A stretch of DNA of 64,000 bases from Luteolibacter sp. Y139. GTDB taxonomy: Bacteria > Verrucomicrobiota > Verrucomicrobiia > Verrucomicrobiales > Akkermansiaceae. Position numbers and translations under genes: made by a program. The DNA lies in assembly GCF_038066715.1 (NCBI RefSeq), contig NZ_JBBUKT010000013.1:62001-126000 (forward strand), in the 5' to 3' direction. The notes under the pieces were generated by a model. It worked only from the letters and a program-made list of their open reading frames with translations, was not told where the DNA came from and ran no database searches. This document shows, in pieces, positions 8,518-30,175 of the stretch (position 1 is the first letter of the stretch; each line of letters begins with the position of its first letter).

Positions 8518-8560
8518 CGGTGCCACATGGGTCGCACGGGACACGTGGGGATGACGAGTG

Positions 8561-10075: not shown

Positions 10076-10175
10076 GGTTCGGGGGGATGATGGGGGTTTG
10101 GGGCTGGGGGAGCCCGATCACAGCCGGGGGAGGCAATGACGTGGGAAATGTAACAGAGGAAAATTCGGCGGACTA

Positions 10176-12383: not shown

Positions 12384-12395
12384 CGGGGGATGATG

Positions 12396-12971
12396 TTAGA
12401 AAAGGCTTTCAGGAATGCTCAGCACGTCGCCGTCCTTGAGAGGCATGTCGGCCGTCTTGCCGGAGGTGATGTCCTTGAGATTGATCGTCTGGACCTTGCC
12501 ACCGGAGCGCTTGAGCGTGATCTTCTTGGTATTCGCGATCCGCGTGGCACCACCCGCCATGCCGATCGCCTCCACAATCGTCATCGAGCGACTCGCGGGC
12601 AGCTCGAAGACGCCCGGGTTCTGCGCCTGCCCTAGCACCGTGATCGTCCGGCGGATGCGACCCTCGATCGTCACGCTCACCTGCGGCTTCACCAGATAGC
12701 CATCCTTGAGCTTGGCCTCGATCACCTTGGCCGCCGAGTCCGTGGTCAGGCCGCCGAGCTTCACCGAGCCAATCAGCGGCATCGAGATCGAGCCATCGCT
12801 GGAGAGCTGGCCCGTGGTCGTCAGCTCCTCCTCGCGGAAGACGCGGATCTCGACCGTGTCGCGCTGGCCGATCACACCGGAAGCACGGCCGCCCTCGGCC
12901 GTCTCGCCGGAGCTGACAGCCGCCAGCAAGCCGATCAAGGCGCATAGGAGGAAAAGGAACTTCAGTTTCAT
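12396..12971 (-). CDS. Wza-like polysaccharide export protein (Poly_export + SLBB)
   Basis: 191 residues with signal peptide MKLKFLFLLCALIGLLAAV. The Poly_export domain follows (GQRDTVEIRVFREEELTTTG, ISMPLIGSVKLGGL, PQVSVTIEG) and then one SLBB domain (RTITVLGQAQNPGVFELP, MTIVEAIGMAGGAT, and KDGDVLSIPESLF at the end). This is short compared with Wza (about 380 aa). It lacks the extra SLBB domains and outer-membrane helix, so the neighbouring barrel protein may provide the outer-membrane pore. No lipobox Cys is seen. The gap to the Wzc-like gene is 12 nt, consistent with one operon. Confidence 0.9.
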   Translation of the reverse strand: MKLKFLFLLCALIGLLAAVSSGETAEGGRASGVIGQRDTVEIRVFREEELTTTGQLSSDGSISMPLIGSVKLGGLTTDSAAKVIEAKLKDGYLVKPQVSVTIEGRIRRTITVLGQAQNPGVFELPASRSMTIVEAIGMAGGATRIANTKKITLKRSGGKVQTINLKDITSGKTADMPLKDGDVLSIPESLF

Positions 12972-12986
12972 GTGGGGGGGGACTTG

Positions 12987-14231
12987 TTAGAAATGATAGC
13001 CCATCTCGACGCCGGCACTGTTGTCCTTGTAGCCGAAGGCCGGGTTGTTCGAGCTGTTCTCGGAGTAGCGATAGTAGAGACCCATGCTGAAGTCGTCCGT
13101 GAAGCGATACTCCAGCGAGGGCCGGATGAAGTGGATCTTGTCCTCGCGGCCAGCAGACCCGGTGCCGGAAACGCGGCTGTATTCGGAACGCTCCAAGCCA
13201 CCTTCCAGGCGCGCACTCCACTTGTCGCCGAGTCGCTGGACGATCCCGAGGGCAACCCCGCCCTGCGTGTAGTTCTGACCCGCCAGATAGGCCGACGCCT
13301 GCTCGCGGCGATAGCCATTGAGGTAAACTTCCGTGCCTTCCTTCGGCTTCCAGCCGATGCGAGCCTCGACCACCGGCGTGGTGTCGGAGCCGCTGTCGAA
13401 GACGCGATGCTCCGCGCCGACTTCCACGTCGATGGCGATCTTCTCGCGCGGCTTCCACTCGATGCGGGCCGTGGTGCGATGCACATCCTGCGGTCCCGCA
13501 CCATCGACTTCAAACCGGCCGAACTTGTAAGCCACACCCAGCGTCGTCTTCGGCGAGTACGCATACTTCAGTGCGACTTCGCCGTACCCATAGCTCGAAT
13601 CCGCAAACCGGGTATCCTTGTAAGAAGTGGATTCGTAACCTGCCGCCACCTCCACCGCGACCCGCTCGCGCACCGACCACGAGATGCGAGCCTCGTTCAC
13701 GAACTCCGTGCGATCCGTCAGCGTGCCAGTATCGGCAGTGGCATCACCCAGGGCCCGGGCTTCTCCGGTATAAGCAAACTTGATCGCCTTCCCGCGCCAC
13801 CCCGTCTCCCACGCCGCCACCTGATCAATGCGATCATTGCTGCTGTAGTCGGCATAGGCCACGGCTGTCGGCTTGTAAGCGATACTGAGATAGCCGCCCT
13901 CGCCCTCCACCGGGTCACCCTTCCGCCACTTGATGGCAGGCGCGACTTTCACCACGAAGTCCGACTGGGCATTCGGGCTGAGGAAAATGTTGTCGTCGTA
14001 GGCCGCTGAGATCGCGATGCCCATCTCCAGCTCCTCGGTCCGCTTCTTCCCCTCCAGTTCATCCAGCCTCGCGCCCGTCTGCGGAACGATACGGCTGTCC
14101 ACCTCACCCTCCAATCGGCCGGGAGCCTTGGAGGTGAGTTCCTCGCCCGACGAAGGGGCCATGACGCCCGCGGCCAGCGCGGCAATCGTCATCGGCACCA
14201 CTCGGGGGGCACGTGGCACTCGGTGGGACAT
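12987..14231 (-). CDS. Outer-membrane beta-barrel protein of the EPS cluster
   Basis: 414 residues. A cationic N-terminus and hydrophobic run (VVPMTIAALAAGVMA) form a signal peptide. A charged region with RLDELEGKKRTEELE follows, then about 300 residues of alternating polar/aromatic beta strands (FVVKVAPAIKW, YLSIAYKPTAVAYADY, FSMGLYYRYSEN) and a final AGVEMGYHF ending in Phe, the classical barrel-insertion signal. It resembles the outer-membrane beta-barrel proteins found in EPS operons of PEP-CTERM-carrying bacteria. It is the first gene of the operon, divergent from the NRPS genes. Its likely role is an export pore or scaffold; that is inferred from position. Confidence 0.85.
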   Translation of the reverse strand: MSHRVPRAPRVVPMTIAALAAGVMAPSSGEELTSKAPGRLEGEVDSRIVPQTGARLDELEGKKRTEELEMGIAISAAYDDNIFLSPNAQSDFVVKVAPAIKWRKGDPVEGEGGYLSIAYKPTAVAYADYSSNDRIDQVAAWETGWRGKAIKFAYTGEARALGDATADTGTLTDRTEFVNEARISWSVRERVAVEVAAGYESTSYKDTRFADSSYGYGEVALKYAYSPKTTLGVAYKFGRFEVDGAGPQDVHRTTARIEWKPREKIAIDVEVGAEHRVFDSGSDTTPVVEARIGWKPKEGTEVYLNGYRREQASAYLAGQNYTQGGVALGIVQRLGDKWSARLEGGLERSEYSRVSGTGSAGREDKIHFIRPSLEYRFTDDFSMGLYYRYSENSSNNPAFGYKDNSAGVEMGYHF

Positions 14232-14304: not shown

Positions 14305-14320
14305 TTACGACATCGCGTAA
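14305..14320. promoter_or_regulatory. Dyad TTACG-N6-CGTAA, candidate operator upstream of the EPS operon
   Basis: ttacg (14305-14309) and cgtaa (14316-14320) form a perfect 5+5 dyad with a 6-nt spacer. It lies 74 nt upstream of the barrel-gene start in the 267-nt divergent region shared with the NRPS genes. Size and spacing fit a dimeric helix-turn-helix regulator. Its role is inferred from position only. A nearby AAATTT-G-AAATTT stretch (minus strand) makes the region AT-rich. Confidence 0.35.
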
Positions 14321-14436
14321 TGCCGATTTTCCGGGTTCCTGATACAACTTCCTAGGCATATCAAATGCGGCAGAATCCTTGAAAAACCGCACCTCGCATT
14401 CCCCACCCCCATTCCAATTCGCCCGAGGCCCGATTG

Positions 14437-14464
14437 TTGACTAATCCAAACTTTTTTAAATAAT
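14437..14464 (+). promoter_or_regulatory. Candidate sigma-70-type promoter of the NRPS/PKS operon
   Basis: TTGACT (14437-14442, five of six to the -35 consensus) is followed after 16 nt by AATAAT (14459-14464, five of six to TATAAT). Both lie in the most AT-rich stretch between the EPS operon and the NRPS. Predicted transcription would start near 14471, about 28 nt before the ATG at 14499. Confidence 0.5.
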
Positions 14465-14498
14465 CGCCCCGTAATTTTACTCATCGCCGCCTGCTTGC

Positions 14499-16316
14499 AT
14501 GATCCTTTCCCCCCTCATGCCGGAAGCTCTTTCCGCCGACGCGCTGCTTCGCGCCTTTGAAATCCACGCTGCCAGCACCCCCGATCAAACGGCGGTGATC
14601 GCGGGAAATGCCACGCTCAGTTATGGCGACCTCGACTCCCGCGCGAACCGTTTGGCTGGCCACCTGCAAGCTCTCGGCGCCCGACCCGGCGTCTTCGTCG
14701 GCATCGGCTTGAACCGCTCCATTGAGCTGATCGTCGCCCTGCTTGCCGTGGTGAAATCGGGGGCTGCCTATGTCCCCCTCGACCCCGGCTATCCGGCTGC
14801 ACGCCTCGCCCACATGGTCTCGACCGCCGGACTCGATCTGGTCCTCAGCCGGTCGGATCTAACAACTCTCTTCTCCGAAGCCGGCGCGAAGACCGTCGTC
14901 GACGTGGCCTCCGCGGAGGGAAATGACCCCGTCACTCCCTACGCCACGCCGGACGACTCGCTCTACGCGATCTTCACCTCCGGCTCCACCGGCCAGCCAA
15001 AGGCCGCCTCAGTCTTCCGCAAGGGCTTCGCCAACCTCCTCAACTGGTATGCCACCGAGTTATCGCTTGGCGCGGAAGACTGCACGCTCGTGATCAGCTC
15101 TCCGAGCTTCGATCTCACCCAGAAGAACTTCTTCACCCCGCTGCTCACCGGCGGCAAGCTCGTCCTCGATGACGGCAGCAACTACGACATCTCTCGTATC
15201 TCAAAGCTGATCCTCGATCACGGCGTCACCCTCATCAACTGCACCCCGAGCGTTTTCTATCCACTCGTCGATGCCGCGGCATCCGGCAGCTACACCGCAC
15301 TCGCGTCCCTCCGCTTCGCCATCCTCGGTGGCGAGCCGATCTCCATCCCTCGCCTCCGCGCCTGGCTGGAGCATCCGAACTCCCGCGCCGAAGTGGTGAA
15401 CACCTACGGCCCCACCGAGTGCACCGACATCTGCGCCTTCCATCGCCTCCATCGCGAAAACCTCGACCTCTTCCCCTTCGTCCCGCTCGGCAAGGAAATC
15501 CCTAACGTCACCGTCACCATCCGTGACGAAGACCTAGCCACCATCCCTGACGGACAACTCGGCGAACTCTGCATCGCTGGCGCCGGCCTCGGCGGCGGTT
15601 ACCTCAATGACTCCGAGCGCACCACCCGCGCCTTCGCCCTCGCCGGCGGCATCTACCGCACCGGCGACCTCGCCCGCCGCCTGCCTTGCGGCACGCTGGA
15701 GTTCCGCGGCCGCGCCGATCACCAGGTAAAGGTGAATGGCTTCCGCATCGAACTCGGCGAAATCGAGATCGCACTCGATCAACACGACGCCGTCCGCGAG
15801 GCCGTCGTCATCGCCAAGGACGGCCGCCTCATCGCCCACATCAAGGGCGACACCTCCGCCGCAGCCCTGAAGGAACACCTCGCCACCCGCCTCCCCGCCT
15901 ACATGGTGCCGAGTGAGTTCCACTTCACCGAAACCTTCCCGCTCACCCCGAACGGAAAAGTCGACCGCCTCGCCCTCGCCGAATCCAATACGTCCCATGC
16001 GTCCTCTAAGACCCATGACGACACCCTCACCGGCCGCATCCTCACCCTTTGGTCAGAAGTGTTAGAGCGCCCCGTCTCCGATCCCGAAGCCAACTTCTTC
16101 GACCTCGGCGGCACCTCCATCCACCTCGCCGTCGTCCACGTCCGCCTTCGCGAACTGACCGGTCGTGATCTCGCCATCACCGACCTCTTCGCCTGCCCCA
16201 GCGCCAAGACACTCGCCGCCTTCCTCTCCCCACAAGCACCCGCCGCGACCTCCGCGGCCCAGGACCGCGCCCGCATGCAACGCGCAGGCCTCGCCAATTT
16301 CCGCCGCCCCCGATGA
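14499..16316 (+). CDS. NRPS loading module (A-T)
   Basis: 605 residues. The adenylation domain (about 15-500) has A3 FTSGSTGQPKA (near residue 157), A5 NTYGPTE, A7 YRTGDLAR, A8 GRADHQVKVNGFRIELGE and A10 PLTPNGKVD. The carrier (T) domain follows with FFDLGGTSIHL (Ser about 540). There is no condensation domain, so this is a starter module. Reading the specificity pocket by eye gives D-L-K-N-I-G-T-D-I-K. Asp235 and Lys517 are present, arguing for an alpha-amino acid, but I recognise no standard residue for this code. A basic C-terminal tail (DRARMQRAGLANFRRP) probably docks to the KS of the next protein. The stop overlaps the next start (ATGA at 16313). Confidence 0.95.
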   Translation: MILSPLMPEALSADALLRAFEIHAASTPDQTAVIAGNATLSYGDLDSRANRLAGHLQALGARPGVFVGIGLNRSIELIVALLAVVKSGAAYVPLDPGYPAARLAHMVSTAGLDLVLSRSDLTTLFSEAGAKTVVDVASAEGNDPVTPYATPDDSLYAIFTSGSTGQPKAASVFRKGFANLLNWYATELSLGAEDCTLVISSPSFDLTQKNFFTPLLTGGKLVLDDGSNYDISRISKLILDHGVTLINCTPSVFYPLVDAAASGSYTALASLRFAILGGEPISIPRLRAWLEHPNSRAEVVNTYGPTECTDICAFHRLHRENLDLFPFVPLGKEIPNVTVTIRDEDLATIPDGQLGELCIAGAGLGGGYLNDSERTTRAFALAGGIYRTGDLARRLPCGTLEFRGRADHQVKVNGFRIELGEIEIALDQHDAVREAVVIAKDGRLIAHIKGDTSAAALKEHLATRLPAYMVPSEFHFTETFPLTPNGKVDRLALAESNTSHASSKTHDDTLTGRILTLWSEVLERPVSDPEANFFDLGGTSIHLAVVHVRLRELTGRDLAITDLFACPSAKTLAAFLSPQAPAATSAAQDRARMQRAGLANFRRPR

Positions 16317-19300
16317 ACGAAGAGCTCCCCCCACCCGAAGCCATCGCCGTCATCGGCATGGCAGGCCGCTTCCCCGGTGCCGATTCGCCCGATGAATTCT
16401 GGGCCAACCTCATCGCGGGCAAGGACTGCATCACCCGCTTCGATTCACGCGTGGGAAGCAACGGCGAAAAATACGTCGGCGCTCGCAGCACGCTCGAACA
16501 CCCCGATCTCTTCGACGCCTCCTTCTTCGGCATCTACCCGAAGGAAGCCGAGCTGATGGACCCCCAGCACCGCGTCTTCCTCGAGTGCGCTTGGGAAGCC
16601 ATCGAGCACTCCGGCTACGATCCCGGTGCCTATCCCGGCATGATCGGCGTTTACGCCGGCCTCAGCCTCAATACCTACCTCCTTCACAACCTCGGCAAGG
16701 CCAAGGATCTCGCGAAGAACTATCAGGTCGCCGAGTACCAAACCATGCTCGGCAACGACAAGGACTTCCTCCCCGTCCGCGTCTCCTACAAGCTGAACCT
16801 CCGCGGCCCGAGCATGACCATCCAGACGGCGTGCTCCACGTCGCTGGTCGCGATCTGCCAGGCCGCCACCTCGCTGCTCACCTACCAGTGCGACATGGCA
16901 CTCGCTGGTGGCGTCTCCATCAGCTTCCCGCAACAGCGCGATTACCTCTACACCGAGGAAGGCATGGTCTCCGGCGACGGCACCGTCCGCGCCTTCGATG
17001 AAAAGGCCAACGGAACCGTCTTCGGCCACGGATGCGGCGTCGTGCTCCTCAAGCGCCTCAGCGAAGCCGTCGCCGACCGCGACCCCATCCTCGCCGTCAT
17101 CAAAGGCTGGGCCGTCAACAACGACGGTTCCGACAAGATCGGCTTCGCCGCCCCCGGCCTCAATGCCCAGGCCGACGTCATCGCCATGGCCCAGGCCGCC
17201 GCAGGCGTGCATCCCTCCGATGTTTCCTACATCGAGGCCCACGGCACCGGCACCCCGCTCGGCGACCCGATCGAAGTCGCCGCTCTAACAAAAGCTTTCC
17301 GCGAAGGCGGTGCCGAAGAAACCGGCTACTGCTCCCTCGGCACCGGCAAGACCCACATCGGCCACCTCGACGTCGCCGCAGGTGTCACCGGCCTGATCAA
17401 GACGATCCAGCAATTCCGCCACGGCAAGATCCCCGCGCTCCTGCACTTCACCGCGCCGAACCCGCGCATCGATTTCGCCAACAGTCCCCTCCGACCCGTC
17501 TCGGAAACCAAGGACTGGCCCCGCTCCGAAACACCACGCCTTGCAGGCGTCAGCGCCTTCGGCGTCGGCGGCACCAATGCCCACGTCGTGATGGAGGAAC
17601 CACCTCTCTCACCTCCAAGCAGACCCGGACGCAAGCAGCAGCTCCTCATCCTCTCCGCCAAAACCGCCAGCGCCCTCGACACGATGGCCGCGAATCTGGC
17701 GAAGCATTTGGAAAGCGATCAATCCGATCTCGCCGACGCATCCTTCACCCTCGCCACCGGCCGCAAATCCTTCCCCTTCCGCCGCCACATCGTCGCCGCG
17801 GACCCCACCGAGGCCATCACCAAACTCCGCGAGCCCGCGAAGTCCTCCGCCTCTAACAAGTCCACTCGCGTCGCCTTCCTCTTCCCCGGCCAAGGCTCGC
17901 AATACCCCGACATGGGCCGCGAGCTCTACGACACCGAGCCCGCCTTCCGCGACGCTGTCGACGAGTGCGCCACTCTCCTCTACTCCCACCTCGGCCTCGA
18001 CATCCGCGCCACCCTCTACCCGACCGAAGCCGACCGCACCGAAGCCGAAAAGCGCATCCACCAAACCTGGCTCACCCAACCCTCCATCTTCGTCACCGAG
18101 TATGCCTTGGCGAAGCTCTGGATCTCCTGGGGCGTCCAACCCTCCCTCGTCATCGGCCACAGCATCGGCGAATACGTCGCCGCCGTCCTCGCCGGCACCT
18201 TCACCCTCGCAGAAGCCCTCGGCCTCCTCGCCGTCCGCGCCAAGCTCATGCAAGCGCTCCCCTCCGGAGCCATGCTTGCCATCCGCCAAGGCGCCGACGA
18301 ACTCACTCTGCCCGAAGGCATCAATCTCGCAGCCATCAATAGCCCGAAACTCTGCACCGTCTCCGGCTCCCACGAGTCCATCGCCGCCTACCAACGCGAA
18401 CTCGAAGAACAGAAGATCGCCTCCCGCGCCCTCAATACCTCGCACGCCTTCCACTCCGCGATGATGGAGCCCATCGTCGCCCCCTTCACCGCCGAAGCCG
18501 CGAAGGTCCGCGCCAACACCCCCTCCATCCCCTGGATCTCGACCTGCACTGGCCGCGAGATGGACGCAGCCACCCTGGCAGACCCTAGCTACTGGGCCCA
18601 CCAACTCCGCCACGAAGTCCGCTTCACCGACGCTCTCGCCACTGCCTACGCCACCGGCGAACTCATCCTATTGGAAGTCGGCCCCGGCCAAGCCCTCGGC
18701 CCCTTCGCCCGCCAGCACCCCGCCCGCGGCACCAGCTCCGTCGTCTCGACCCTGCCTTCTTCTTCCACCGACCTCGCCGACCTCCTCAACGCCGCCGGCG
18801 AACTCTGGAAAACCGGCGTCACCCTCGACTGGCCTTCTTTCTTCTCCGGCCAGGAACGCTCCCGCGTCCACCTGCCCACGTATCCCTTCGAACGCCAAAG
18901 CTACTGGATCGACAATTCGTCCGAGACCCCGCAGGCCCCTTCTACCATGGCAGCCCCGACACCTGTCGCAGCCGATCTGCCATCTGCGATCTCCCATCTA
19001 CCATCCCCCCCCTCAGCCATGTCCCGCCTTCCCGACCTTGCCGCCAAGCTGCGTGCCATCGTCCATGAACTCTCCGGCATCACCGTCGACGACGATGCCG
19101 CCACGTTCACCGAACTCGGCTTCGATTCCCTCTTCCTCACCCAGGCCAGCCAGGCGATCCAATCCCGCTTCGGCGTGAAGATCACCTTCCGCCAGATGCT
19201 CGGTGAACTCTCCTCGGTGGCCACCATCGCGACTCACCTCGACGCGGAACTTCCAGCCGACGCCGCACCAACTACGACACCCGCCGTAGTTGCCACTCCC

Positions 19301-22300
19301 ACACCTCTTCCTCCGATCACACCAGTCGGCAACGGCGGCACCATCGAGCAATTGATGGCGAACCAGATCCAGCTCATGCAGGCCCTGCTGGCCGACCGCC
19401 AGTCTCCCGCCCCTGCATCAGCCCCCGCCGCCGCTAGCAGCCTCCCAACCGTCAAGTGGCCCGCCAATCACACCCGCAACGTCTCCGCCAACACCCGCTT
19501 CGGCCCCTACAAGCCGATCGACAAGGGCGAAAACGGCGGCCTCACCCCGGTCCAACAGAGGTCCCTCGACGAGCTCATTGCCCGCTACGTTCGCAAGACC
19601 GCCACCTCGAAGGCCTACACCGCCGAGCACCGCGATCACTACGCCGACCCACGCGCCGTCTCCGGCTTCAAGTCACTGTGGAAAGAGATGGTCTATCCCA
19701 TCGTCTCCTCCCGCTCGAAAGGCGCGAAGATCTGGGATCTCGACGGCAATGAATACGTCGATATCACCATGGGCTTCGGCACCTACTTCTTCGGCCACTC
19801 GCCGGAGTGGTTGACGGAAGCCATCGAGAAGCAACTCCACACCGGCATCGAAATCGGGCCGCAGTCCCCCATCGCCGGAAAACTCGCGAAGGCCATCTGC
19901 GAGCTGACCAACATGGAGCGCGCCACCTTCTGCAACACTGGCTCCGAGGCCGTGATGGCCGCCATGCGCCTCGCCCGCACCATCACCGGCCGCACCCGCA
20001 TCGCCTACTTCACCGGCGACTACCACGGCATGTTCGAGGAAGTCCTCGTCCGCGGCGCATGGGTCGATGGCGTCTACAAGGCCCAGCCCATCGCCCCCGG
20101 CATCCCGCAATCGCTCGTCGAGAACATGCTCGTCCTCGACTACGCCGACCCCGCCTCTCTGGAAATCCTCAAGGCCCACGCCCACGAACTCGCCGCCGTC
20201 ATGGTCGAGCCCGTGCAAAGCCGCGCCCCCGGCCTCCAGCCGCGTGACTTCATGCACGAGGTCCGCGCCATCACCAAGGCCGCCGGCACCGCGCTCATCT
20301 TCGATGAAGTCGTCACCGGATTCCGCTGCCATCCCGGCGGTGCCCAGGCCTACTTCGGCGTCGAAGCCGACCTCGCCACCTACGGCAAGGTCATCGGCGG
20401 CGGCATGCCCATCGGCGTCCTCGCAGGAAAGCGCGAATACATGGACGCCCTCGACGGCGGCTCATGGAACTACGGCGACGATAGCTTCCCGGAAGTCGGC
20501 GTCACCTTCTTCGCCGGCACCTTCGTCCGCCACCCCCTCGCCCTCGCCGCCGCATGGCGCGTCGTCGAGCACCTCAAAGGCGAAGGCCCTCGCCTCCAGA
20601 TCGAAGTCACCGAACGCGTCGAGCGCCTCTGCCGCACGCTCAACAATCACTTCGAAGCCATCGGCGTCCCCATCCGCCTGCCACACTTCAGTGCCTACGC
20701 CGTCATCGAGTACGCCGCGGACCTGAAGTATGCCAGCCTCCTCTGGTACTTCCTCCGCGAGAAAGGCGTTCACGTCTGGGAAGGCCGCCCGCTCTACTTC
20801 ACCACCGCTCACAACGACGAGGACTTCGACCGCATCGTCCGCGGCTTCACCGAAGCCGTCGCCGACATGCAGGCCGCCGGCTTCCTCCCCGCATCAGCGA
20901 AAGAAGTCACCGCACCCGCCGTTTTTCCGCGCCACGACATCGCACCGACCACCGAAGGCCAGCGCGAGATCTTCCACTCGCTCATGATGGGCGATGAAGC
21001 GAACTGCGCCTACAACGAGTCGAACGTCATCCGCTTCGATGGCGACCTCGATCTCCCCGCACTCCGCTCCGCGTTGTTAGATCTCGTCGTCCGCCATCCC
21101 GCCCTGCGCAGCACCTTCAGCCCGGATGGCCAGCAGCAGATTTTCCACGCCGCCCCGCGCCAGTTGGAAATCCACGAGCACGACTTCTCCGCCCTCACCG
21201 CCGACGCCCGCGACATGCACTGGTCGCAGGTGAAGGAAGACGAAGCACGCACGCCCTTCGATCTCGCCCGTCACGCCCTGGTCCGCCTCCAAGTCGCGCG
21301 CCTCTCCGCCGATCACCACGAGCTTCTTTTCACCGCTCATCACATCGTCTGCGACGGCTGGTCCTTCGGCATGATCCTCATGGAGCTGGCCCAAGCCTAC
21401 AATGCCCGCAAGGCCGGCCGCCTCCCGCTGCTTCCGCCGGCCATGTCCTTCGCCGACTACGCCCGCCACGAAGTCGCCCATCAAGACGACCACGCCACCG
21501 CCGAAGCCTGGTGGGTCGCGAAGTTTGAGAATGGCGCACCCATCCTCGAACTCCCCACCGACCGCCCCCGCCCGCAGGTCAAGACCTTCGCCGGCTCGAT
21601 GGAAGCGATCACCCTCGATGCCGATCGCTACGCCCGCCTCAAGAAAGCCTCTCCGAAACTCGGCGGCACCCTCTTCGCCACCCTCCTCGCCAGCTTCGCC
21701 ACCCTCCTCCATCGCCTCACCGGCCAGGAAGACCTCGTCATCGGCGTCCCCGCCGCAGGCCAAACCCGCATCGGCCGCGACGAACTCGTTGGCCACTGCC
21801 TCAACTTCCTCCCCCTCCGCCTCCAAGCAAACGCCGACCGCTCCTTCCGCACCTTCGCCGCCGAAGTGAAGGAGCAGGTATTGGAAGCCTACGATCACCA
21901 GGACTGCACCTTCGGCAGCCTGCTGAAGAAGCTCAGCCTGCCTCGCGACACCAGCCGCCTGCCGCTGGTGAACGTGATGTTCAACATCGACAAGTCCGGC
22001 ATCGACCAGATCACCTTCGATGGCCTCGCCTTCGACGTCTGGACCAATCCGAAGCGCCACGTCAATTTCGACCTCTTCTTTAACCTCGTCCAAACCGACG
22101 AGCGCATGATCGTCGAGTGCGAATACAATCCCGACCTCCACGACGCCGCCACCATCCGCCGCTGGCTCGGCTGCTTCGAGCAACTCATCGAAAGCGCAAT
22201 CCTCGACGGCGAGACCACGCTGCAGGCACTCCCCATCCTCAACACCGGGGAAACCCAGCGCGTCCTCGTCGACTGGAACGCCACCGAGCGCGATTACCCG

Positions 22301-25231
22301 CGCACCGCCACCCTCCCCTGCCTCGTCTCGCACGTCGCCTCCCGCGTCCCGGAAAAGACCGCCGTCCGGTGCGACAACACCTCCCTCACTTACGCCGCCC
22401 TCGAACAACGCGCCAACACCATCGCGACTCGCCTCCAGGCATCCGACGTGAAGCGCGGCGATCTCGTCGGCATCCACCTCGAGCGCTCCACCGACATGGT
22501 CGCGGGCCTACTCGGCATCCTGAAATGCGGTGCCGCCTACGTCCCGATGGACCCCGCCTTCCCGGCCGAGCGCCTCGCCTTCATGGTCGAGGACGCGCAC
22601 ATGCCGGTCATCCTCTCGCAGACCTCGCTGCACAAGGAACTCCCCACCTCGCAAGCCCAGGTCATCCTCGTCGATGAAGTCACCGGGGACGGCACCGGCT
22701 TCACCTCCGTCGAATGCGATCCCGAAGACCTCGCCTACGTCATCTTCACCTCCGGCTCCACCGGTCGTCCGAAGGGCGTTCGCCTGCCCCACCGCGCCGT
22801 GGTGAACTTCCTCAACTCGATGCGTCGCGAACCGGGCCTCACCCCGGCTGACGTGCTGCTCGCAGTCACCACCCTCTCCTTCGACATCGCCGGCCTGGAA
22901 ATCTTCCTCCCGCTCACCACCGGTGCCGAAGTCGTGATCGCCACCCGCGACACCACCATCGACGGCAACCGCCTCGCCGAAACCATCGCCCGCCACAACG
23001 TCACCGTCCTCCAGGCAACACCCGCCACCTGGCGCCTGCTGTTAGAAGCCCAGTGGTCCGGCAAGTCCACCTTCAAGGCCCTCGTCGGCGGCGAAGCCGT
23101 CCCGCGCGACCTCGTCAATCGCCTCGCCCCCCTCTGCGGCGAAATCTGGAACGTCTACGGCCCCACCGAAACCACCATCTGGTCCACCACCGCCCAAGTC
23201 ACCGCCGGTGAAGGCCCCGTCACCATCGGCCGCCCCATCGACAATACCCAGGTCTTCATCGTCAACACCGCCATGCAACCGCAGCCCGTCGGCATCCCCG
23301 GCGAACTGCTCATCGGCGGCGATGGCCTCGCCCACGGCTATCACGAGCGTCAGGACCTCACTGACGACCGCTTCATCTCCACCCCGCTCCAATCCGGCAA
23401 GCTCTACCGGACCGGCGACCTCGCTCGTTGGAATGCGGACGGCACCATCGAATGCCTCGGCCGCATGGACCATCAGGTGAAAGTCCGCGGCTTCCGCATC
23501 GAGCTCGGCGACATCGAGACCCATCTCGAACAACACCCCTCTATCGCCCAAGCCGTGGCCCACGTCCACGACGGCCGCCTCGTCGCCTACGTCCGCCCCG
23601 AAGGTGCGACCGGTAACGGCACCGCCATCTGGGAAGACCAGTGGGACCTGCTCTACAAGTCCGCCATCGACCAGTCCGGCAGCGGCCATCTCGACAAGCT
23701 CGACTCCGTCATCGCCGGCTGGGCAGGCATCACCGACATCGATGACCAGGTCGCCGAGTGGATCGAAACCACCAGCTCCCGCCTCCGCGGCTACGGCCCG
23801 CGCCGCATCTTTGAAATCGGCTGCGGCACCGGCCAGATCCTCTCCCGCTTCGCCGCCGAGTCCGAGTGTTACTGGGCCGCCGACATCTCCAAGGTCGCCA
23901 TCGAAGCCCTCCAGAAGAATCACCCGCTCCCGCAGGTGAAGCTCTTCCACCGTCCCGCCGATGACTTCACGGACATCCCCGAAGGCTACTTCGACACCAT
24001 CATCATCAACTCGGTCGCTCAATACTTCCCAGACGCGCCCTACCTCGCCCGTGTCCTTGAAGGTGCCGCGCAAGCCCTCAAGCCCGGCGGCCGCATCTTC
24101 CTCGGCGACATCCAAAGCAATGCGCTCCTCTCCGCCCACCACGCCGAGATCCTCCGCGAGCGCGCCCCCGCCGGAACCACCTGCAAGCAACTCCGCGACA
24201 AGCTCGCCCAACGCCTCTCTCGCGAAACCGAGCTTTCACTCGACCCCGCCTGGTTCGATCACCTCGATGGCTTCTCGCACGTCGAAATCCAGCTCCGCCG
24301 CGGCAAGCTCTCGAACGAAACGACCACCTATCACTACGACGTGATCCTCCACGTCGGCGAAAAGCCAGCCACCCAGGTGGTCACCAACTGGCGTCAATGG
24401 GAACGCCTCAACCTTGAGCAGCTCGAAGCCATGCTCGCCGAAGGCCCGAACGAACTCGCCATCGCCGGCATCCCGGACCTCCGTCTCGCCCCCGCCCTCG
24501 GCTTCCTCAGAGCTCTTGAACATTCACCAGAAGATAGCGCGCTTCCCTTCGTCCCCTCACCGCCGAACACCGCCCTAACAGCCGAAGACCTCTTCGCCGC
24601 CGCGTCTTCGTCCGGCTACAAGGCCCACGTCCGCTGGCGCGGCAATGGCGCCGCCGGCATCATCGACGTGATCTTCCTCCCCGCAGGCAGTGGAGTCCGT
24701 CCCCTGTGGCCGATCCAAGCCTCACCGGCACCATTGGCAAACGTACCACACCACGAGAAGCCATCCACCGGACTCGCCACGGAACTCCGCCAACATCTCG
24801 CCGCCAAGCTCCCGGACTACATGGTGCCCTCTGCCTTCGTGGTCCTCGACGCCTTCCCGCTCACCCCGAATGGCAAGGTCAACCGCAAGGCCCTCCCCGC
24901 CCCCGGCGAAGCCGAAGACGCACCTGCCCGCGAAATCGTCGCCGCCAAGAACGACACCGAGCAAAAGCTCGTCGAGATCTGGAAACAAGTCCTCGGCCTG
25001 AAGGAGATCGGCACCACCGACGACATCTTCGAACTCGGCGGCGACTCCATCCTAATCTTCCAGATCAGCACCCGCGCCACCCGTGCCGGCCTGGCCATCG
25101 CTCCCGCACAAGTCTTCCGCCACCGCAACATCGCCGCGCTGGCCTCCGACCTGAGTTCTGTGGCAGAACCTGCCCCAGCGGCCCCGACCATCCAACGCGT
25201 CAATCGCGATGCCTACCGCCGCAAACTCTGA
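16313..25231 (+). CDS. Hybrid PKS-NRPS megasynthase: KS-AT-ACP-AMT-C-A-nMT-T
   Basis: 2,972 residues. KS (about 8-430) has the triad Cys174 (QTACSTS), His310 (EAHGTGT) and His351 (HIGHLD). AT (about 518-830) has GHSIGEY with its Ser near 616 and HAFH, the malonyl-CoA signature. ACP Ser939 lies in GFDSL. The PLP aminotransferase (about 1070-1530) is of the GSA-aminomutase type, with GSEAVMAAMR and Schiff-base Lys1359 in TYGKVIGGG. The C domain has HHIVCDGWS (about 1676). The A domain (from about 2005; A3 near 2143) has the hand-read pocket D-I-L-Q-L-G-V-I-W-K, one residue from the glycine code DILQLGLIWK. An N-methyltransferase (EIGCGTGQIL, about 2499) is inserted between A8 and A10. T has Ser2912 in GGDSI. 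There is no KR, DH or ER. The module should extend the starter with malonate, transaminate the beta-ketone, then add N-methylglycine. Confidence 0.96.
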   Translation: MNEELPPPEAIAVIGMAGRFPGADSPDEFWANLIAGKDCITRFDSRVGSNGEKYVGARSTLEHPDLFDASFFGIYPKEAELMDPQHRVFLECAWEAIEHSGYDPGAYPGMIGVYAGLSLNTYLLHNLGKAKDLAKNYQVAEYQTMLGNDKDFLPVRVSYKLNLRGPSMTIQTACSTSLVAICQAATSLLTYQCDMALAGGVSISFPQQRDYLYTEEGMVSGDGTVRAFDEKANGTVFGHGCGVVLLKRLSEAVADRDPILAVIKGWAVNNDGSDKIGFAAPGLNAQADVIAMAQAAAGVHPSDVSYIEAHGTGTPLGDPIEVAALTKAFREGGAEETGYCSLGTGKTHIGHLDVAAGVTGLIKTIQQFRHGKIPALLHFTAPNPRIDFANSPLRPVSETKDWPRSETPRLAGVSAFGVGGTNAHVVMEEPPLSPPSRPGRKQQLLILSAKTASALDTMAANLAKHLESDQSDLADASFTLATGRKSFPFRRHIVAADPTEAITKLREPAKSSASNKSTRVAFLFPGQGSQYPDMGRELYDTEPAFRDAVDECATLLYSHLGLDIRATLYPTEADRTEAEKRIHQTWLTQPSIFVTEYALAKLWISWGVQPSLVIGHSIGEYVAAVLAGTFTLAEALGLLAVRAKLMQALPSGAMLAIRQGADELTLPEGINLAAINSPKLCTVSGSHESIAAYQRELEEQKIASRALNTSHAFHSAMMEPIVAPFTAEAAKVRANTPSIPWISTCTGREMDAATLADPSYWAHQLRHEVRFTDALATAYATGELILLEVGPGQALGPFARQHPARGTSSVVSTLPSSSTDLADLLNAAGELWKTGVTLDWPSFFSGQERSRVHLPTYPFERQSYWIDNSSETPQAPSTMAAPTPVAADLPSAISHLPSPPSAMSRLPDLAAKLRAIVHELSGITVDDDAATFTELGFDSLFLTQASQAIQSRFGVKITFRQMLGELSSVATIATHLDAELPADAAPTTTPAVVATPTPLPPITPVGNGGTIEQLMANQIQLMQALLADRQSPAPASAPAAASSLPTVKWPANHTRNVSANTRFGPYKPIDKGENGGLTPVQQRSLDELIARYVRKTATSKAYTAEHRDHYADPRAVSGFKSLWKEMVYPIVSSRSKGAKIWDLDGNEYVDITMGFGTYFFGHSPEWLTEAIEKQLHTGIEIGPQSPIAGKLAKAICELTNMERATFCNTGSEAVMAAMRLARTITGRTRIAYFTGDYHGMFEEVLVRGAWVDGVYKAQPIAPGIPQSLVENMLVLDYADPASLEILKAHAHELAAVMVEPVQSRAPGLQPRDFMHEVRAITKAAGTALIFDEVVTGFRCHPGGAQAYFGVEADLATYGKVIGGGMPIGVLAGKREYMDALDGGSWNYGDDSFPEVGVTFFAGTFVRHPLALAAAWRVVEHLKGEGPRLQIEVTERVERLCRTLNNHFEAIGVPIRLPHFSAYAVIEYAADLKYASLLWYFLREKGVHVWEGRPLYFTTAHNDEDFDRIVRGFTEAVADMQAAGFLPASAKEVTAPAVFPRHDIAPTTEGQREIFHSLMMGDEANCAYNESNVIRFDGDLDLPALRSALLDLVVRHPALRSTFSPDGQQQIFHAAPRQLEIHEHDFSALTADARDMHWSQVKEDEARTPFDLARHALVRLQVARLSADHHELLFTAHHIVCDGWSFGMILMELAQAYNARKAGRLPLLPPAMSFADYARHEVAHQDDHATAEAWWVAKFENGAPILELPTDRPRPQVKTFAGSMEAITLDADRYARLKKASPKLGGTLFATLLASFATLLHRLTGQEDLVIGVPAAGQTRIGRDELVGHCLNFLPLRLQANADRSFRTFAAEVKEQVLEAYDHQDCTFGSLLKKLSLPRDTSRLPLVNVMFNIDKSGIDQITFDGLAFDVWTNPKRHVNFDLFFNLVQTDERMIVECEYNPDLHDAATIRRWLGCFEQLIESAILDGETTLQALPILNTGETQRVLVDWNATERDYPRTATLPCLVSHVASRVPEKTAVRCDNTSLTYAALEQRANTIATRLQASDVKRGDLVGIHLERSTDMVAGLLGILKCGAAYVPMDPAFPAERLAFMVEDAHMPVILSQTSLHKELPTSQAQVILVDEVTGDGTGFTSVECDPEDLAYVIFTSGSTGRPKGVRLPHRAVVNFLNSMRREPGLTPADVLLAVTTLSFDIAGLEIFLPLTTGAEVVIATRDTTIDGNRLAETIARHNVTVLQATPATWRLLLEAQWSGKSTFKALVGGEAVPRDLVNRLAPLCGEIWNVYGPTETTIWSTTAQVTAGEGPVTIGRPIDNTQVFIVNTAMQPQPVGIPGELLIGGDGLAHGYHERQDLTDDRFISTPLQSGKLYRTGDLARWNADGTIECLGRMDHQVKVRGFRIELGDIETHLEQHPSIAQAVAHVHDGRLVAYVRPEGATGNGTAIWEDQWDLLYKSAIDQSGSGHLDKLDSVIAGWAGITDIDDQVAEWIETTSSRLRGYGPRRIFEIGCGTGQILSRFAAESECYWAADISKVAIEALQKNHPLPQVKLFHRPADDFTDIPEGYFDTIIINSVAQYFPDAPYLARVLEGAAQALKPGGRIFLGDIQSNALLSAHHAEILRERAPAGTTCKQLRDKLAQRLSRETELSLDPAWFDHLDGFSHVEIQLRRGKLSNETTTYHYDVILHVGEKPATQVVTNWRQWERLNLEQLEAMLAEGPNELAIAGIPDLRLAPALGFLRALEHSPEDSALPFVPSPPNTALTAEDLFAAASSSGYKAHVRWRGNGAAGIIDVIFLPAGSGVRPLWPIQASPAPLANVPHHEKPSTGLATELRQHLAAKLPDYMVPSAFVVLDAFPLTPNGKVNRKALPAPGEAEDAPAREIVAAKNDTEQKLVEIWKQVLGLKEIGTTDDIFELGGDSILIFQISTRATRAGLAIAPAQVFRHRNIAALASDLSSVAEPAPAAPTIQRVNRDAYRRKL

Positions 25232-25235
25232 CTCG

Positions 25236-28200
25236 ATGAGCGAGACCCGTCACGACCTGGATGCGACCCAAGCGCCAGAGGCCGCGGACGTACTGGCGTT
25301 TCCCGCGTCAGTCGCCCAACAGGTCTTTTGGTACCTGGAGCTGCTCCAGCCCGGCGTCTCGGCCTTCAATATCCCCATGCGCTTCCGCCTGGAAGGCGCG
25401 CTCGATACGAATTTGTTAGAGCGATCGCTGCGAACCATCATTGAGCGCCACGAATCACTGCGGACCCACTTCGAGGAAGAAGGCGGCGAGCTGCTCCAAA
25501 TCGTTTCCCCGGACTCAAACTTCGACTTCCCGATCTACGACGTCTCCTCCCTGCCGGAAAGCGAGCGCCTACAGGAAGCCGACCGCCTCGGCAGCATCGA
25601 GGCACAACGCCCCTTCCATCTCGCCACCGGCCCGGTCTTCCGCGCCGAGTTGGTGAAGCTCTCCGCCACCTCCCACATCCTCCACGTCACCGTCCATCAC
25701 GCGATGTTCGACGGCTCGTCGATGACCGTCCTTACCGAAGAGCTCGCCCAGATCTACCAAGCCTATCACGACGGCAAGGAATGCCCGCTCGAACTCCCAC
25801 CGATCCAATACGGCGACTTCAGCGTGTGGCAGAGGGACTTTCTTGAAGGCCCCGAAGTCGCCAAGCAACTCGCTTACTGGAAAGACCGGCTGACAAACAT
25901 GGCCGAGCTGGATCTCCCCACCGACCGCCCGCGCCCCGCCGCGAAGTCGTGGAACGGCGACCTCATCTCCTCCCTCCTGCCCCGCGATCTTACCAATCGC
26001 CTGCAAGCCATCGCCGCCCGAAACGGAGCCACCCTCTATCACCTGCTGCTCGCAGCGTATAAAGTTCTCCTCCACCGCTACAGCGGCATGACCGACATCG
26101 CCGTCGGCTCGCCCATCACCGGCCGCACCCGCGCCGAGATGGAGCGCCTCATCGGCGTCTTCATCAATTCGCTAGTCCTCCGCAGCGACCTCTCCGGCGA
26201 CCCATCGTTCGAAAGCCTCGTCTGCCAAGTCCGCGATACCGCTCTGTCGGCAGTCGAAAACCAGGACCTGCCCTTCGAGTGCCTCGTCCGCGCCCTGAAG
26301 CCGAACCGCGACTCCAGCCGCAACCCCCTCTTCCAAGTCAACTTCACCCATCAGCGTTCATTCGCCAAAGCCGGCAAGTTCGGCGGCGTCGAACTGATCC
26401 CTATTCCCTCACGCTCCCCCGGCGCCATCTTCGACCTCCACTTCTTCATGGTCGAGCGCGCCGAAGGCTGGCGCGTCACCTGCGACTTCAGCACTGACCT
26501 CTTCGACCACGCCACCGCCCGCCGCATGCTCGCGCACTATCAGCGCTTGCTCGAAGGAATTGCGGAAGCCCCACAAAGAAACCTCTCGGAACTGGAGATC
26601 CTAACAGCCGAAGAGAAGGAAACGATCCTCGGTCAATGGTCTCGCAACGAAGCGACTGGCAGCGTCGACACCATCCCCTCCCTCTTCGCCCAAGCAGCAT
26701 CGACTCACAGCACTCGCACCGCCCTCGTCTTCGGCGAGCACACGCTCACCTACACCCAACTCCACGTCGAAGCCGCTACCCTGGCAGCACGCCTCATCGA
26801 ATCCGGCGTGAAGCCCGGCGACCTGGTAGCTCTCTGCTCGAAGCCATCGCCCGAAATGATCGTCGGCCTCCTCGGTATCCTGCTGGCCGGCGGTGCCTAC
26901 GTCCCTCTCGATCCCGACTACCCGGCTCAGCGCTTCGCCCTCTTGTTAGAAGAATCCGGCGCGAAAGTCGGCCTCGCCGCTCCCGGCCTCGCCTTCTCCT
27001 TCGGCGAATGGAACGGCACCTTGTTAGAGATCCCCAGGATCGGAAACGCCACCTCGGTCGATCTTCCCCACATCGCCCTTTCCCCGGAGCACCCTGCCTA
27101 CCTCCTCTTCACCTCAGGCTCCACCGGCAAGCCAAAGGGCGTGCTGGTCCCCCATCGCGGCGTCACCCGGCTCGTCCGCGACAACGGCTTCATGCCGATC
27201 ACCGCCGAAGACGTCTTCCTCCAGGCCGCCCCCCTCTCCTTCGACGCCTCCACGCTCGAAATCTGGGGCCCGCTCCTCAATGGCGGCACCCTCGTCATCC
27301 CCTCGCAAGGCACCGGCCTCGATGAAATCGCCACCGCCGTCCGCGAAAAAGGCGTCACCGCACTCTGGCTCACCGCGGGTCTCTTCCAAGTGATGATCGA
27401 GGAGCACATGGCGTCTCTCAAAGGCCTCCGCTACCTCCTTGCCGGCGGCGACGTCCTCTCCGTCTCCCACATCCGCCAAGCCTTGGCCGCCCTTCCCGGC
27501 ACCACCCTTATCAACGGCTACGGCCCCACGGAAAACACCACCTTCACCACCTGCCACATTATTGGTGAGCAGGACTGCGAACGCCCCTCCATCCCCATCG
27601 GCCGCCCAATCGCCAACACTACCGCCTTCATCCTCGACGACCAAGGCCGCCCCGTTCCTGCAGGCATCCACGGCGAACTCTTCACCGGCGGCGCGGGCCT
27701 CGCCCTCGGCTACCACGGCGACCCAACCCTCACTGCGGAAAAGTTCATCACCCATCCCCAGTTCGGCCGCCTCTATCGCACCGGCGACCTCTGCCGCTGG
27801 CTCGCAGATGGCACCATCGAGTTCATCGGCCGCCGCGACCATCAGGTAAAGGTCCGCGGCTTCCGCATCGAGCCCGGCGAAATCGAAACCGTCCTCGCCT
27901 CCCACCCCGAAGTCCGCCAAGCCAAGGTCGCCGTACGCGGTGATACGGCTGAAACCAAGCGCATCCTCGCCTGGGCCATCGTCGAGCAAGGCAGCCTGCT
28001 CGATTCCACCAAGCTCGATGCTTGGCTCTCCGCCCGCCTCCCCGCCTTCCTCCAACCCGACGGCGTCATGATCGTCGACGCCTTCCCGGTCACCGCGAAT
28101 GGCAAAATCGACCTCGCCGCCCTGCCCGACCCCGCAAAAGCGCCCCCCGAAGCCCGCATCTTCACCCCGCCCCAAGGCGAGATCGAGCAACAGCTCGCCG

Positions 28201-29237
28201 CCATCTGGAGCGAACTACTAGGAACATCGGAGATCGGCCGCGAGGACGACTTCTTCTCCCTCGGTGGCCACTCGCTGATGGCCCTCCGCCTCTTCTCACG
28301 CATCTCCCGCGACTTCGGCCGCAGCCTGCCATTGGCCGCACTGCTCAGCCACCCGACCATCGCACGCCTCGCCTCCCTGCTCCAGTCCGAGTCGCAACCC
28401 AGCCCGGTCAAATCCGGCAAGCGAGGCCATCTCGTCACTCTCTTCGATCGCGGCACGCCACCACCACTCTTCTGCATCCATGGAGGCGACGGCGGCGTCA
28501 TCTTCTACCGCGGCCTCGCGGAGCGCATGACCGGCGACTTCCCGATCCACGCCATCGAGGCGCTCTCGCTGAGTAACAGCACCCCCATCGAGGAATCCAG
28601 CGTCGAGGAGACCGCGGCCGCCTACATCCAGGAGCTTCTCGCCGTCCACTCCAGTGGTCCCTTCCGCCTCGCCGGATACTCCTTCGGTGGCGTCGTCGCC
28701 CACGAGATGGCCTGCCAACTCACCGAGCAGGGCCACACAGTCGAATTCCTCGGCCTTTTCGATACCCACAATCCCACCGCTCCCTCCAAGCGCTACTCCC
28801 TGGGCGGACGCCTCGGCGCCTTCTGGCAACAACAGGACGACTTGCCCCTCCCCGCGAAACTCGAGCGCCTGCGAGAACGCATCGCCGAGGGCATCGCAGT
28901 CCATCGCCAGGTGAAGAAGGAAGTCTCCGAAGCCATGAACATGGGCCCCGCCGAAGCCCATAGCGACCTGCGCCGCGTCCAGGTTCGCGAGGAAAACTGG
29001 CGCGCCATGCAGGCTTATCGCCCGCGGTCCTACGCCGGCACCACCACGCTCTTCAAGGCAATGACCCCGAGCGACAAGGTCGAGTGGCCGGCTGACTACG
29101 GATGGAGTTCGGTGGCACTTGGAGGGCTGAGGATCATCCCCGTCCCCGGGCGACACCTGACCCTATTCGACGAAGGAAACATCGGTCCGCTCGCGAGAGC
29201 ATTGCAAGAAGCACTCCAGACTACCGCGATCGCGTGA
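25236..29237 (+). CDS. NRPS termination module (C-A-T-TE)
   Basis: 1,333 residues from ATG 25236, four nt after the previous stop; an in-frame ATG at 25209 would overlap the upstream gene. The condensation domain has HHAMFDGSS (about 155). The adenylation domain has A3 FTSGSTGKPKG (about 624) and A10 PVTANGKID. T has FFSLGGHSLMAL (Ser about 1011). The type I thioesterase has GYSFGG (Ser about 1147), an Asp in FDTHNP and a His in PGRHLTLFDE. The hand-read pocket D-A-L-W-L-G-G-T-F-K belongs to the valine-type group (compare DAFWIGGTFK). The C domain looks LCL-like and no epimerase is present, so L-Val is expected. TE releases the product by hydrolysis or cyclisation. Last gene of the biosynthetic operon. 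Confidence 0.95.
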   Translation: MSETRHDLDATQAPEAADVLAFPASVAQQVFWYLELLQPGVSAFNIPMRFRLEGALDTNLLERSLRTIIERHESLRTHFEEEGGELLQIVSPDSNFDFPIYDVSSLPESERLQEADRLGSIEAQRPFHLATGPVFRAELVKLSATSHILHVTVHHAMFDGSSMTVLTEELAQIYQAYHDGKECPLELPPIQYGDFSVWQRDFLEGPEVAKQLAYWKDRLTNMAELDLPTDRPRPAAKSWNGDLISSLLPRDLTNRLQAIAARNGATLYHLLLAAYKVLLHRYSGMTDIAVGSPITGRTRAEMERLIGVFINSLVLRSDLSGDPSFESLVCQVRDTALSAVENQDLPFECLVRALKPNRDSSRNPLFQVNFTHQRSFAKAGKFGGVELIPIPSRSPGAIFDLHFFMVERAEGWRVTCDFSTDLFDHATARRMLAHYQRLLEGIAEAPQRNLSELEILTAEEKETILGQWSRNEATGSVDTIPSLFAQAASTHSTRTALVFGEHTLTYTQLHVEAATLAARLIESGVKPGDLVALCSKPSPEMIVGLLGILLAGGAYVPLDPDYPAQRFALLLEESGAKVGLAAPGLAFSFGEWNGTLLEIPRIGNATSVDLPHIALSPEHPAYLLFTSGSTGKPKGVLVPHRGVTRLVRDNGFMPITAEDVFLQAAPLSFDASTLEIWGPLLNGGTLVIPSQGTGLDEIATAVREKGVTALWLTAGLFQVMIEEHMASLKGLRYLLAGGDVLSVSHIRQALAALPGTTLINGYGPTENTTFTTCHIIGEQDCERPSIPIGRPIANTTAFILDDQGRPVPAGIHGELFTGGAGLALGYHGDPTLTAEKFITHPQFGRLYRTGDLCRWLADGTIEFIGRRDHQVKVRGFRIEPGEIETVLASHPEVRQAKVAVRGDTAETKRILAWAIVEQGSLLDSTKLDAWLSARLPAFLQPDGVMIVDAFPVTANGKIDLAALPDPAKAPPEARIFTPPQGEIEQQLAAIWSELLGTSEIGREDDFFSLGGHSLMALRLFSRISRDFGRSLPLAALLSHPTIARLASLLQSESQPSPVKSGKRGHLVTLFDRGTPPPLFCIHGGDGGVIFYRGLAERMTGDFPIHAIEALSLSNSTPIEESSVEETAAAYIQELLAVHSSGPFRLAGYSFGGVVAHEMACQLTEQGHTVEFLGLFDTHNPTAPSKRYSLGGRLGAFWQQQDDLPLPAKLERLRERIAEGIAVHRQVKKEVSEAMNMGPAEAHSDLRRVQVREENWRAMQAYRPRSYAGTTTLFKAMTPSDKVEWPADYGWSSVALGGLRIIPVPGRHLTLFDEGNIGPLARALQEALQTTAIA

Positions 29238-29296: not shown

Positions 29297-30175
29297 ATGA
29301 CCGTGCCGTTCCCCCTCCCCGCCCTGTTGTTCGCCCTCCTCCCGCTCGGAGCGATGGCGCAGACTTACGTCGATTTGGATTTCAGCCACAATGTGCAGGC
29401 TGCCACCCAAATGTATCCGAACAACTCCACGCTCGGCCCCTACTACAGCTCGGCGTCGTACATGGATTTCACCAGCGCCGGCAGCTACAATGGCAATTCA
29501 GTCGATGTCCGCGTGTCCTTTCTCGGACTGACCGATGGCGAAAGCTCCGACTTCCGCGGATCGAGCACCTATCAATGGGTCGGCTGGATCCCCGACTACA
29601 ACACCCTCGATGCCAGCAACGATCTCGGCGTCTACTATCGCCACGATGGAAACTACGCCCAGCAGCAGGGCGGCATCGCATGGTCGCTTTCCTTTTTCGA
29701 GGGCGGTGGCAGCTTCAGCACGCCGATCACGTTGCCGGGCGTGCGCTTGCTCATCTACGATCATGATGGCGAGCCATTCCAATCGGAGTCGATCCGCGCC
29801 TTCGCCGGAGACGGCCTCACTGGCTACCAGCTTCACGGCAGCAGCGGCATCCTCGCCTCGGATGAAGGCGGCAGCTATCGCTTCGACGCCGCCGGCGCAG
29901 GCCAGCCCGAGACCACACCCCACGGTGGGATGATCCTCTATTACCAGAATACCTCGTCGATTCGCTTCGACATGTTCTCCACCACCCAGCCCGGTCTCCC
30001 GGTGCAGAACAATGGTATCTTCGCCGCATGGGATGGCGACCTCGGACTGACCGACGGCACCACGGGTGGCTTCAATCCCCTCGTGGTCGTGCCGGAGCCG
30101 ACCGCTCCGCTTTTGTTAAGCGTCGCCTCCATGGGCATGCTGCTTCGCCGCAGCCGCCGGGCGATCAATGCGTGA
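29297..30175 (+). CDS. PEP-CTERM sorting-domain protein
   Basis: 292 residues from ATG 29297 with a clear signal peptide (MTVPFPLPALLFALLPLGAM, cleavage near AQT). The middle is a beta-rich extracellular domain of unknown function (YVDLDFSHNVQAA ... STYQWVGWIPDYN). The C-terminus is a textbook PEP-CTERM tripartite signal: VPEPTAP, a hydrophobic segment LLLSVASMGML, then LRRSRRA. Such proteins are cut and anchored by exosortase and often accompany EPS loci, but no exosortase gene lies in this window. It follows the NRPS operon by 59 nt and has its own coding style, so co-transcription is possible but not shown. Confidence 0.9.
   Translation: MTVPFPLPALLFALLPLGAMAQTYVDLDFSHNVQAATQMYPNNSTLGPYYSSASYMDFTSAGSYNGNSVDVRVSFLGLTDGESSDFRGSSTYQWVGWIPDYNTLDASNDLGVYYRHDGNYAQQQGGIAWSLSFFEGGGSFSTPITLPGVRLLIYDHDGEPFQSESIRAFAGDGLTGYQLHGSSGILASDEGGSYRFDAAGAGQPETTPHGGMILYYQNTSSIRFDMFSTTQPGLPVQNNGIFAAWDGDLGLTDGTTGGFNPLVVVPEPTAPLLLSVASMGMLLRRSRRAINA

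Follow-up and report, generated by a model that had tools for sequence, protein, structure and literature searches.

A Hybrid Assembly Line beside an Exopolysaccharide Export Operon

The window considered here is the whole analyzed stretch of 64,000 nucleotides from Luteolibacter sp. Y139 (assembly GCF_038066715.1, contig NZ_JBBUKT010000013.1, positions 62,001 to 126,000), which carries, back to back, a three-gene assembly line combining nonribosomal peptide synthetase and polyketide synthase modules (NRPS/PKS) and an operon for exopolysaccharide export. The genes of the line all lie on the + strand. Open reading frame 1 (ORF1; 14499-16316, 605 aa) is by Pfam a loading module of adenylation (A, ~14556-15605) and thiolation (T, ~16035-16226) domains, whose specificity code DLKNIGTDI(K) is predicted to select homoserine. 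ORF2 (16313-25231, 2972 aa) comprises, again by Pfam, a polyketide part with ketosynthase (KS, 16337-17449), acyltransferase (AT, 17876-18685, with the malonyl-type motif HAFH) and acyl carrier protein (ACP, serine codon at ~19127), followed by an aminotransferase (AMT, 19694-20776), a condensation domain (C, 20936-22261), an A domain (22331-23344) with the code DILQLGVIW(K), predicted for Gly, an N-methyltransferase (nMT, 23813-24097) that Pfam places within this A domain, and a T domain (24962-25147). ORF3 (25209-29237, 1342 aa) adds, in the Pfam annotation, C (25302-26630), A (26685-27716; code DALWLGGTF(K), predicted for Val), T (28188-28382) and a terminal thioesterase (TE, 28461-29168). 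The sequence-only reading had proposed three adjacent genes with overlapping junctions, intact catalytic motifs and the domain order A-T / KS-AT-ACP-AMT-C-A-nMT-T / C-A-T-TE, and on these points it stands: all frames are open and overlap by 4 and 23 bases, every Pfam match exceeds its curated cut-off, and the KS, AT, carrier serine, pyridoxal phosphate lysine, C (HHxxxDG), methyltransferase and TE motifs are all found. Domain order and motifs agree in describing a colinear hybrid line, complete from starter to TE. Since nine other genomes carry the same three genes with open frames, there is very little chance of an assembly or frameshift artefact.

In ORF2 there is no Pfam match for a ketoreductase, and the AT match of Pfam ends at residue 791, 148 residues ahead of the ACP serine (939), a gap too small for a domain of the usual ketoreductase size. 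The Aminotran_3 domain lies between ACP and C in a single protein, as in hybrids with an in-line class III AMT. Loading is by an amino-acid A-T module with Asp at position 235, and not by the fatty-acyl or aryl loading that is typical of the mycosubtilin/iturin and microcystin McyE types; the line is a sister kind to the in-line AMT hybrids and not of mycosubtilin type. A lipopeptide reading was rejected, the line having no acyl-ligase.

The divergent operon (7183-14231, − strand) faces the line across 267 bases separating the two start codons. Its first gene encodes an outer-membrane beta-barrel protein (OMP; BBP2_2, 12987-14231), the nearest NCBIfam models of which, TIGR03016 and EpsL, both score under cut-off; it is followed by a Wza-like polysaccharide export protein (Poly_export/SLBB, 12396-12971), a chain-length determinant/tyrosine autokinase of Wzz-Wzc type (10176-12383), a polyprenyl glycosylphosphotransferase (PGT; Bac_transf, TIGR03025 above cut-off, 8561-10075) and a Wzx-like flippase (Polysacc_synt, 7183-8544). 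The combination of polyprenyl phosphate sugar transferase, flippase, Wza-like protein and Wzc-like kinase is that of a Wzx/Wzy-type locus. The outer-membrane, export and chain-length proteins also resemble families of XrtA/PEP-CTERM loci, and there is one exosortase in the genome; however, all matches of the window to those families fall under cut-offs, and the exosortase lies on another contig. NRPS/PKS genes are not known as members of XrtA/PEP-CTERM loci.

Conservation of the Pairing and Probable Exchange of the Line

A search for the AMT domain over 144 genomes, among them that of the window, matched 32 at E up to 1e-60; these include 15 of the 18 that belong to the same genus. The three-gene cluster is present in the same order, with open frames, in nine further genomes (seven of the same genus and two of genus g13) at 57-91% protein identity to the window, while a tenth, G005, has a fragment. 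Its carriers belong to Luteolibacter/Haloferula (Akkermansiaceae) and the sister genus g13, and include Haloferula sp. BvORR071 (L067, that is G015), Luteolibacter marinus NBU1238 (L069, that is G012) and Verrucomicrobiaceae metagenome-assembled genomes (L066, L083), with a fragment in an Akkermansiaceae genome (L068). The catalytic residues checked are kept in the window and all nine orthologs, with a single variant: in one cluster the AT motif HAFH has G as its second residue. Between the window and five of these orthologs, dN/dS is 0.09-0.31 over the three genes. The pathway is old, intact and under selection. NRPS genes as such are not rare in this bacterial order: 66 of the 144 genomes have a condensation-domain match, 64 of them above cut-off.

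Conservation extends to the neighboring operon, for all five export genes adjoin the cluster in each of the nine orthologs, and in view of this result the compact, free-standing pathway that had been supposed from the sequence is not supported. How specific is the association? From 141 condensation-domain rows, nine were dropped as weak or fragments and the remaining 132 were merged into 104 NRPS loci; linkage was judged by hits to two proteins of the window, its PGT (with E up to 1e-100) and its OMP (with E up to 1e-25), so that export genes unlike these two are uncounted in the figures. Within 25 kb of such export genes lie 18 of the 31 loci with an AMT, versus 2 of the 73 NRPS loci lacking one (Fisher 4e-10). 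Among genomes that have the export genes, the proportions are 18/29 and 2/39 (Fisher 3e-7). One of the two linked non-AMT loci is a split AMT line (G013, see below), and the other, G135, is probably an AMT line too; on its contig C104 the condensation domain is divergent from the OMP gene, as in G107 and G113.

The same export genes are accompanied in other genomes by a different AMT line, which we call type II as distinct from the three-gene type I. In G002, G014, G016, G017 and G041 it is a single gene of ~3,500 aa placed directly before the export genes and in the same direction; in a sixth genome, G013, it is split by a contig end. The N-terminus of type II proteins, blank in Pfam, is an FkbH loading domain in 7/7 lines tested (the export-linked lines of G002, G016 and G041, and four similar lines from other genomes), which we presume to provide a glycerate-like starter. 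For G014, the single type II line of the five whose last A code was read, this code is Val-like. In the AMT tree, which carries a long-branch warning, the two types stand apart at 100/100. The trees of PGT and kinase instead group the type II genome G041 with the type I genome G050, both of genus g13, at 93/87 and 94/90, and neither type forms a single group in any of 200 bootstrap trees. Together with the opposite gene orientation and the different whole-gene architecture, these trees suggest that the assembly line was exchanged while the export operon stayed.

In line with a link between the two systems, G006 (92% complete) has kept PGT and kinase, with the flippase in two frames; neither an AMT line nor OMP was found, nor any Wza in the 19.9 kb examined. 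In G001 the contig ends just after OMP. A related line in the 3.3 Mb genome G004 (L156, 2267-9907, − strand) retains the divergent arrangement and open frames, with a decayed AT and no N-methyltransferase match; no AT was detected, the GHSxG and HAFH motifs being missing from the stretch examined. This line is either eroding or supplied by another acyltransferase.

The divergent intergenic region is shared by both operons. As to the promoter of its own that had been ascribed to the line, a sigma-70-like site (TTGACT-16-AATAAT, 14437-14464, + strand) is present 34 bases before the ORF1 start. One such site was counted, where shuffled sequences gave 0.2 on average; TTGAC is kept in some, not all, of eight aligned intergenic regions. 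A conserved palindrome, TTACG-N6-CGTAA(TGC) (14305-14323, + strand), has a single copy in the 7.1 Mb genome even when one mismatch is allowed, and is found at the same stringency in 8/10 type I loci, G007 and G029 being those that lack it. It is a candidate operator for one or both operons; since it is closer to the export operon, it may control that side only. An operator shared with type II loci was rejected, as none of these contains the palindrome with up to two mismatches.

Predicted Product and Related Assembly Lines

Of each specificity code, nine positions, numbered in the usual way, were taken from an alignment, and Lys was presumed for the tenth. The ORF2 code is DILQLGVIW in genus g1 and DLFNNALTY in two intact g13 clusters, which we take to be glycine and alanine codes, respectively, while the ORF3 code, DA(L/V/F)WLGGTF, is presumably one for valine. 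Hence the homoserine and Val positions are near-constant across clusters and the middle one varies between Gly and Ala. The ORF1 code reads DLKN(I/V)G(T/S)DI in 10/10 clusters, and is predicted to activate homoserine by its likeness to codes reported for this residue in PMC7524897 (DLKNFGSDVK, an antiSMASH 4.1.0 call) and PMC12283262 (DLKNVGSDVK and DLKNLGTDVK).

Combined with the N-methyltransferase, AMT and malonyl-type AT, these codes predict the product 3,4-diamino-6-hydroxyhexanoyl-N-methylglycyl-valine. ORF1 would load homoserine as the starter and KS-AT would add one malonyl unit; the resulting beta-ketone, there being no ketoreductase in the line, would pass to the AMT and be transaminated to the 3,4-diamino-6-hydroxyhexanoyl intermediate, after which ORF2 would append N-methylglycine and ORF3 valine. 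The TE might then free the linear product (by arithmetic C14H28N4O5, [M+H]+ 333.2132) or a ring (315.2027), or hand the chain to another nucleophile. The corresponding [M+H]+ values would be 347.2289 for the sister genus and 249.1445 for type II lines. Such a molecule would be a small hydrophilic polyamine.

Among solved structures, the nearest relative of the window AMT is that of the mycosubtilin synthetase MycA (472 bits over 452 residues). MycA uses a fatty acid as starter and its line gives a lipopeptide, whereas the window line starts from an amino-acid A-T module, adds only two further residues and is paired with polysaccharide export genes. The AMT is in both cases located at the PKS/NRPS interface, and glutamine has been reported as the amine source of the mycosubtilin enzyme (PMC3870968). 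Also related are the amino-acid-started AMT lines of Nostoc, for example that of Nostoc sp. CHAB 5824 (L099), ordered A-T / KS-AT-T-AMT / C-A-nMT-T / C-A-T-TE, the codes of which are Val, Gly (with the N-methyltransferase) and Val, so that a very similar product logic with another starter would be expected; it differs in its Val-type starter code, in having AMT and C on separate genes, in an AMT identity of 56%, and in the lack of any export gene found in the examined flank. In a plasmid collection, at least 80% of ORF2 is matched in one place by 24 records, none of which reaches 60% identity; ten among the matches listed have 41-42.5% identity. The label of orphan pathway can be retained to the extent that literature searches, over parts of long result lists, brought up neither a product nor a cluster that has been described. 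Likewise, the titles and abstract openings, again over parts of long lists, mentioned no exopolysaccharide locus with NRPS/PKS genes.

Similar associations are seen in other phyla. Among 80 named loci with AMT lines, 5 are orthologs of the window cluster and 75 are non-orthologous; 9 of the latter have a relative of PGT, Wzc or Wza in the examined flank (L078, L090, L120, L121, L124, L129, L137, L140 and L144). For example, two glycosyltransferases, Wza and Wzc lead into the line of L140 (Acidobacteria); in L090 (Calditrichia) a glycosyltransferase, a flippase and Wzy precede the line while Wza, Wzc and Wzy follow it; L121 (Terriglobia) has a flippase and two glycosyltransferases before the line and PGT after it; and in L129 (Gammaproteobacteria) the line is surrounded by PGT, a phosphopantetheinyl transferase (PPTase), a flippase and Wza. 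In 50 of the 75 non-orthologous loci, mostly on longer contigs, the distance to Poly_export was measured: such a gene is no more than 35 kb away from the best AMT line in at least 10 of the 50 genomes (G149, G151, G153, G163, G175, G176, G178, G180, G185 and G187, with G153 counted from the flank search and not from the Poly_export search), versus ~2 expected, an estimate from 185 matches and ~6.6 Mb per genome.

Other Genes of the Region and the Genome

Directly downstream of the cluster, 29297-30175 (+ strand) encodes a secreted-looking protein, with a C-terminus resembling by eye a PEP-CTERM signal (VPEP...LRRSRR) and no NCBIfam match. It was considered as a fourth gene of the line and rejected as such, being present in 7/9 orthologous regions and directly after ORF3 in 5, and is kept as a neighbor. 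Genes from 30340 onward are common to only two of the nine orthologs, G008 and G011; a 2265-aa ORF without Pfam match (35976-42773, − strand) is also found in 2/9 orthologous regions. The genome has a second NRPS of 1935 aa on contig C14 (L064, 13629-19433, + strand), with two AMP-binding domains, the first of which has a sub-cut-off DIP2-like match, one C, two carrier domains and TE; no export gene lies within the 39.8 kb examined around it. ORFs of comparable size, with one condensation domain, occur in several genomes of the genus.

What Does the Assembly Line Contribute?

The stable pairing of an intact, conserved line with an export system is well supported, and a function shared by the line and the export operon is strongly suggested. 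The best explanation, at about even odds, is that the product is a polar amino-polyketide-peptide forming part or partner of the exopolysaccharide, and not the output of a free-standing antibiotic pathway. It would serve the adjoining system most likely as a non-sugar substituent giving positive charges or, alternatively, as a matrix component made together with the exopolysaccharide. We infer that the product modifies or accompanies the polysaccharide, to which it may be attached; a transfer of the chain by the TE onto a sugar nucleophile is conceivable but speculative. A wider proposal is more tentative and somewhat less likely than not: that this is a new kind of surface polymer, an exopolysaccharide with hybrid NRPS/PKS substituents (beta-amino or 3,4-diamino acyl peptides) made by exchangeable lines at a fixed Verrucomicrobiota export locus, in a pairing that has also arisen in, or spread to, Acidobacteria, Calditrichia and Gammaproteobacteria.

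A number of points weigh against these proposals. Beside the export operon of the window there is neither a glycosyltransferase nor a Wzy polymerase among the tested ORFs, which also include no recognizable gene for joining peptide to sugar. The genomes compared are related, so shared ancestry inflates the Fisher values, and 13 of the 31 AMT lines lie beyond 25 kb of export genes, a few of them on short contigs or at contig ends (most of the 13 are in another family, f2, and two in genus g11). Among the matches listed, 40 of the 50 named genomes, Nostoc and Corallococcus included, have no Poly_export within 35 kb. As to the exchange of lines, the branches joining G041 and G050 are below the level starred by the tree tool, in the export trees the starred branches alone are compatible with each type having arisen once, and the long-branch warning attaches to the AMT tree. 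The homoserine assignment uses codes one to two positions off the published ones, and the palindrome is missing from type II loci as well as from two of the ten type I loci.

The product may instead be a metabolite secreted in free form, such as an antibiotic or aminopeptidase inhibitor that begins with a beta-amino unit at its N-terminus, and its genes may neighbor the export operon merely by descent. The line is complete with its TE, many AMT lines are far from export genes, and mycosubtilin, a known product of an AMT line, is a free lipopeptide (PMC3870968). We nevertheless regard this as unlikely: there are two line types in opposite orientations at one export locus, with conflicting trees; across the genomes compared, the linkage is seen in just 2 of the 73 NRPS loci that lack an AMT; and neither among ORF1-ORF3 nor immediately next to them does Pfam reveal a dedicated transporter or a resistance gene. 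The shared intergenic region, with its genome-unique palindrome recurring in most type I loci, would also suit a diffusible signal that induces exopolysaccharide production, the intergenic region being its control point. This is less likely still, since no receptor or regulator gene was recognized in the locus, type II loci lack the palindrome, and the products predicted for the two line types at this operon differ chemically, which suits a structural part at least equally well. Least probable by far is a metal-binding, siderophore-like product, despite the predicted vicinal diamine and a FUR-family gene nearby (32999-33499): this gene is in the examined region of only 2/9 orthologs, on which ground the siderophore was rejected as the main explanation, and no receptor or siderophore transporter was recognized among the tested ORFs.

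In usual genome mining, NRPS/PKS clusters are treated as pathways for free small molecules and exopolysaccharide loci as sugar pathways; here both travel together, and next to export genes that are conserved the assembly line has seemingly been swapped like a cassette. Glycosyltransferases are swapped likewise in antigen loci. If the product decorates the polymer, it would constitute an unrecognized source of cationic groups on the biofilm matrix, and many orphan clusters with AMT domains would gain a function. The proposal can be tested in Luteolibacter marinus NBU1238 and Haloferula sp. BvORR071, both of which bear the cluster.

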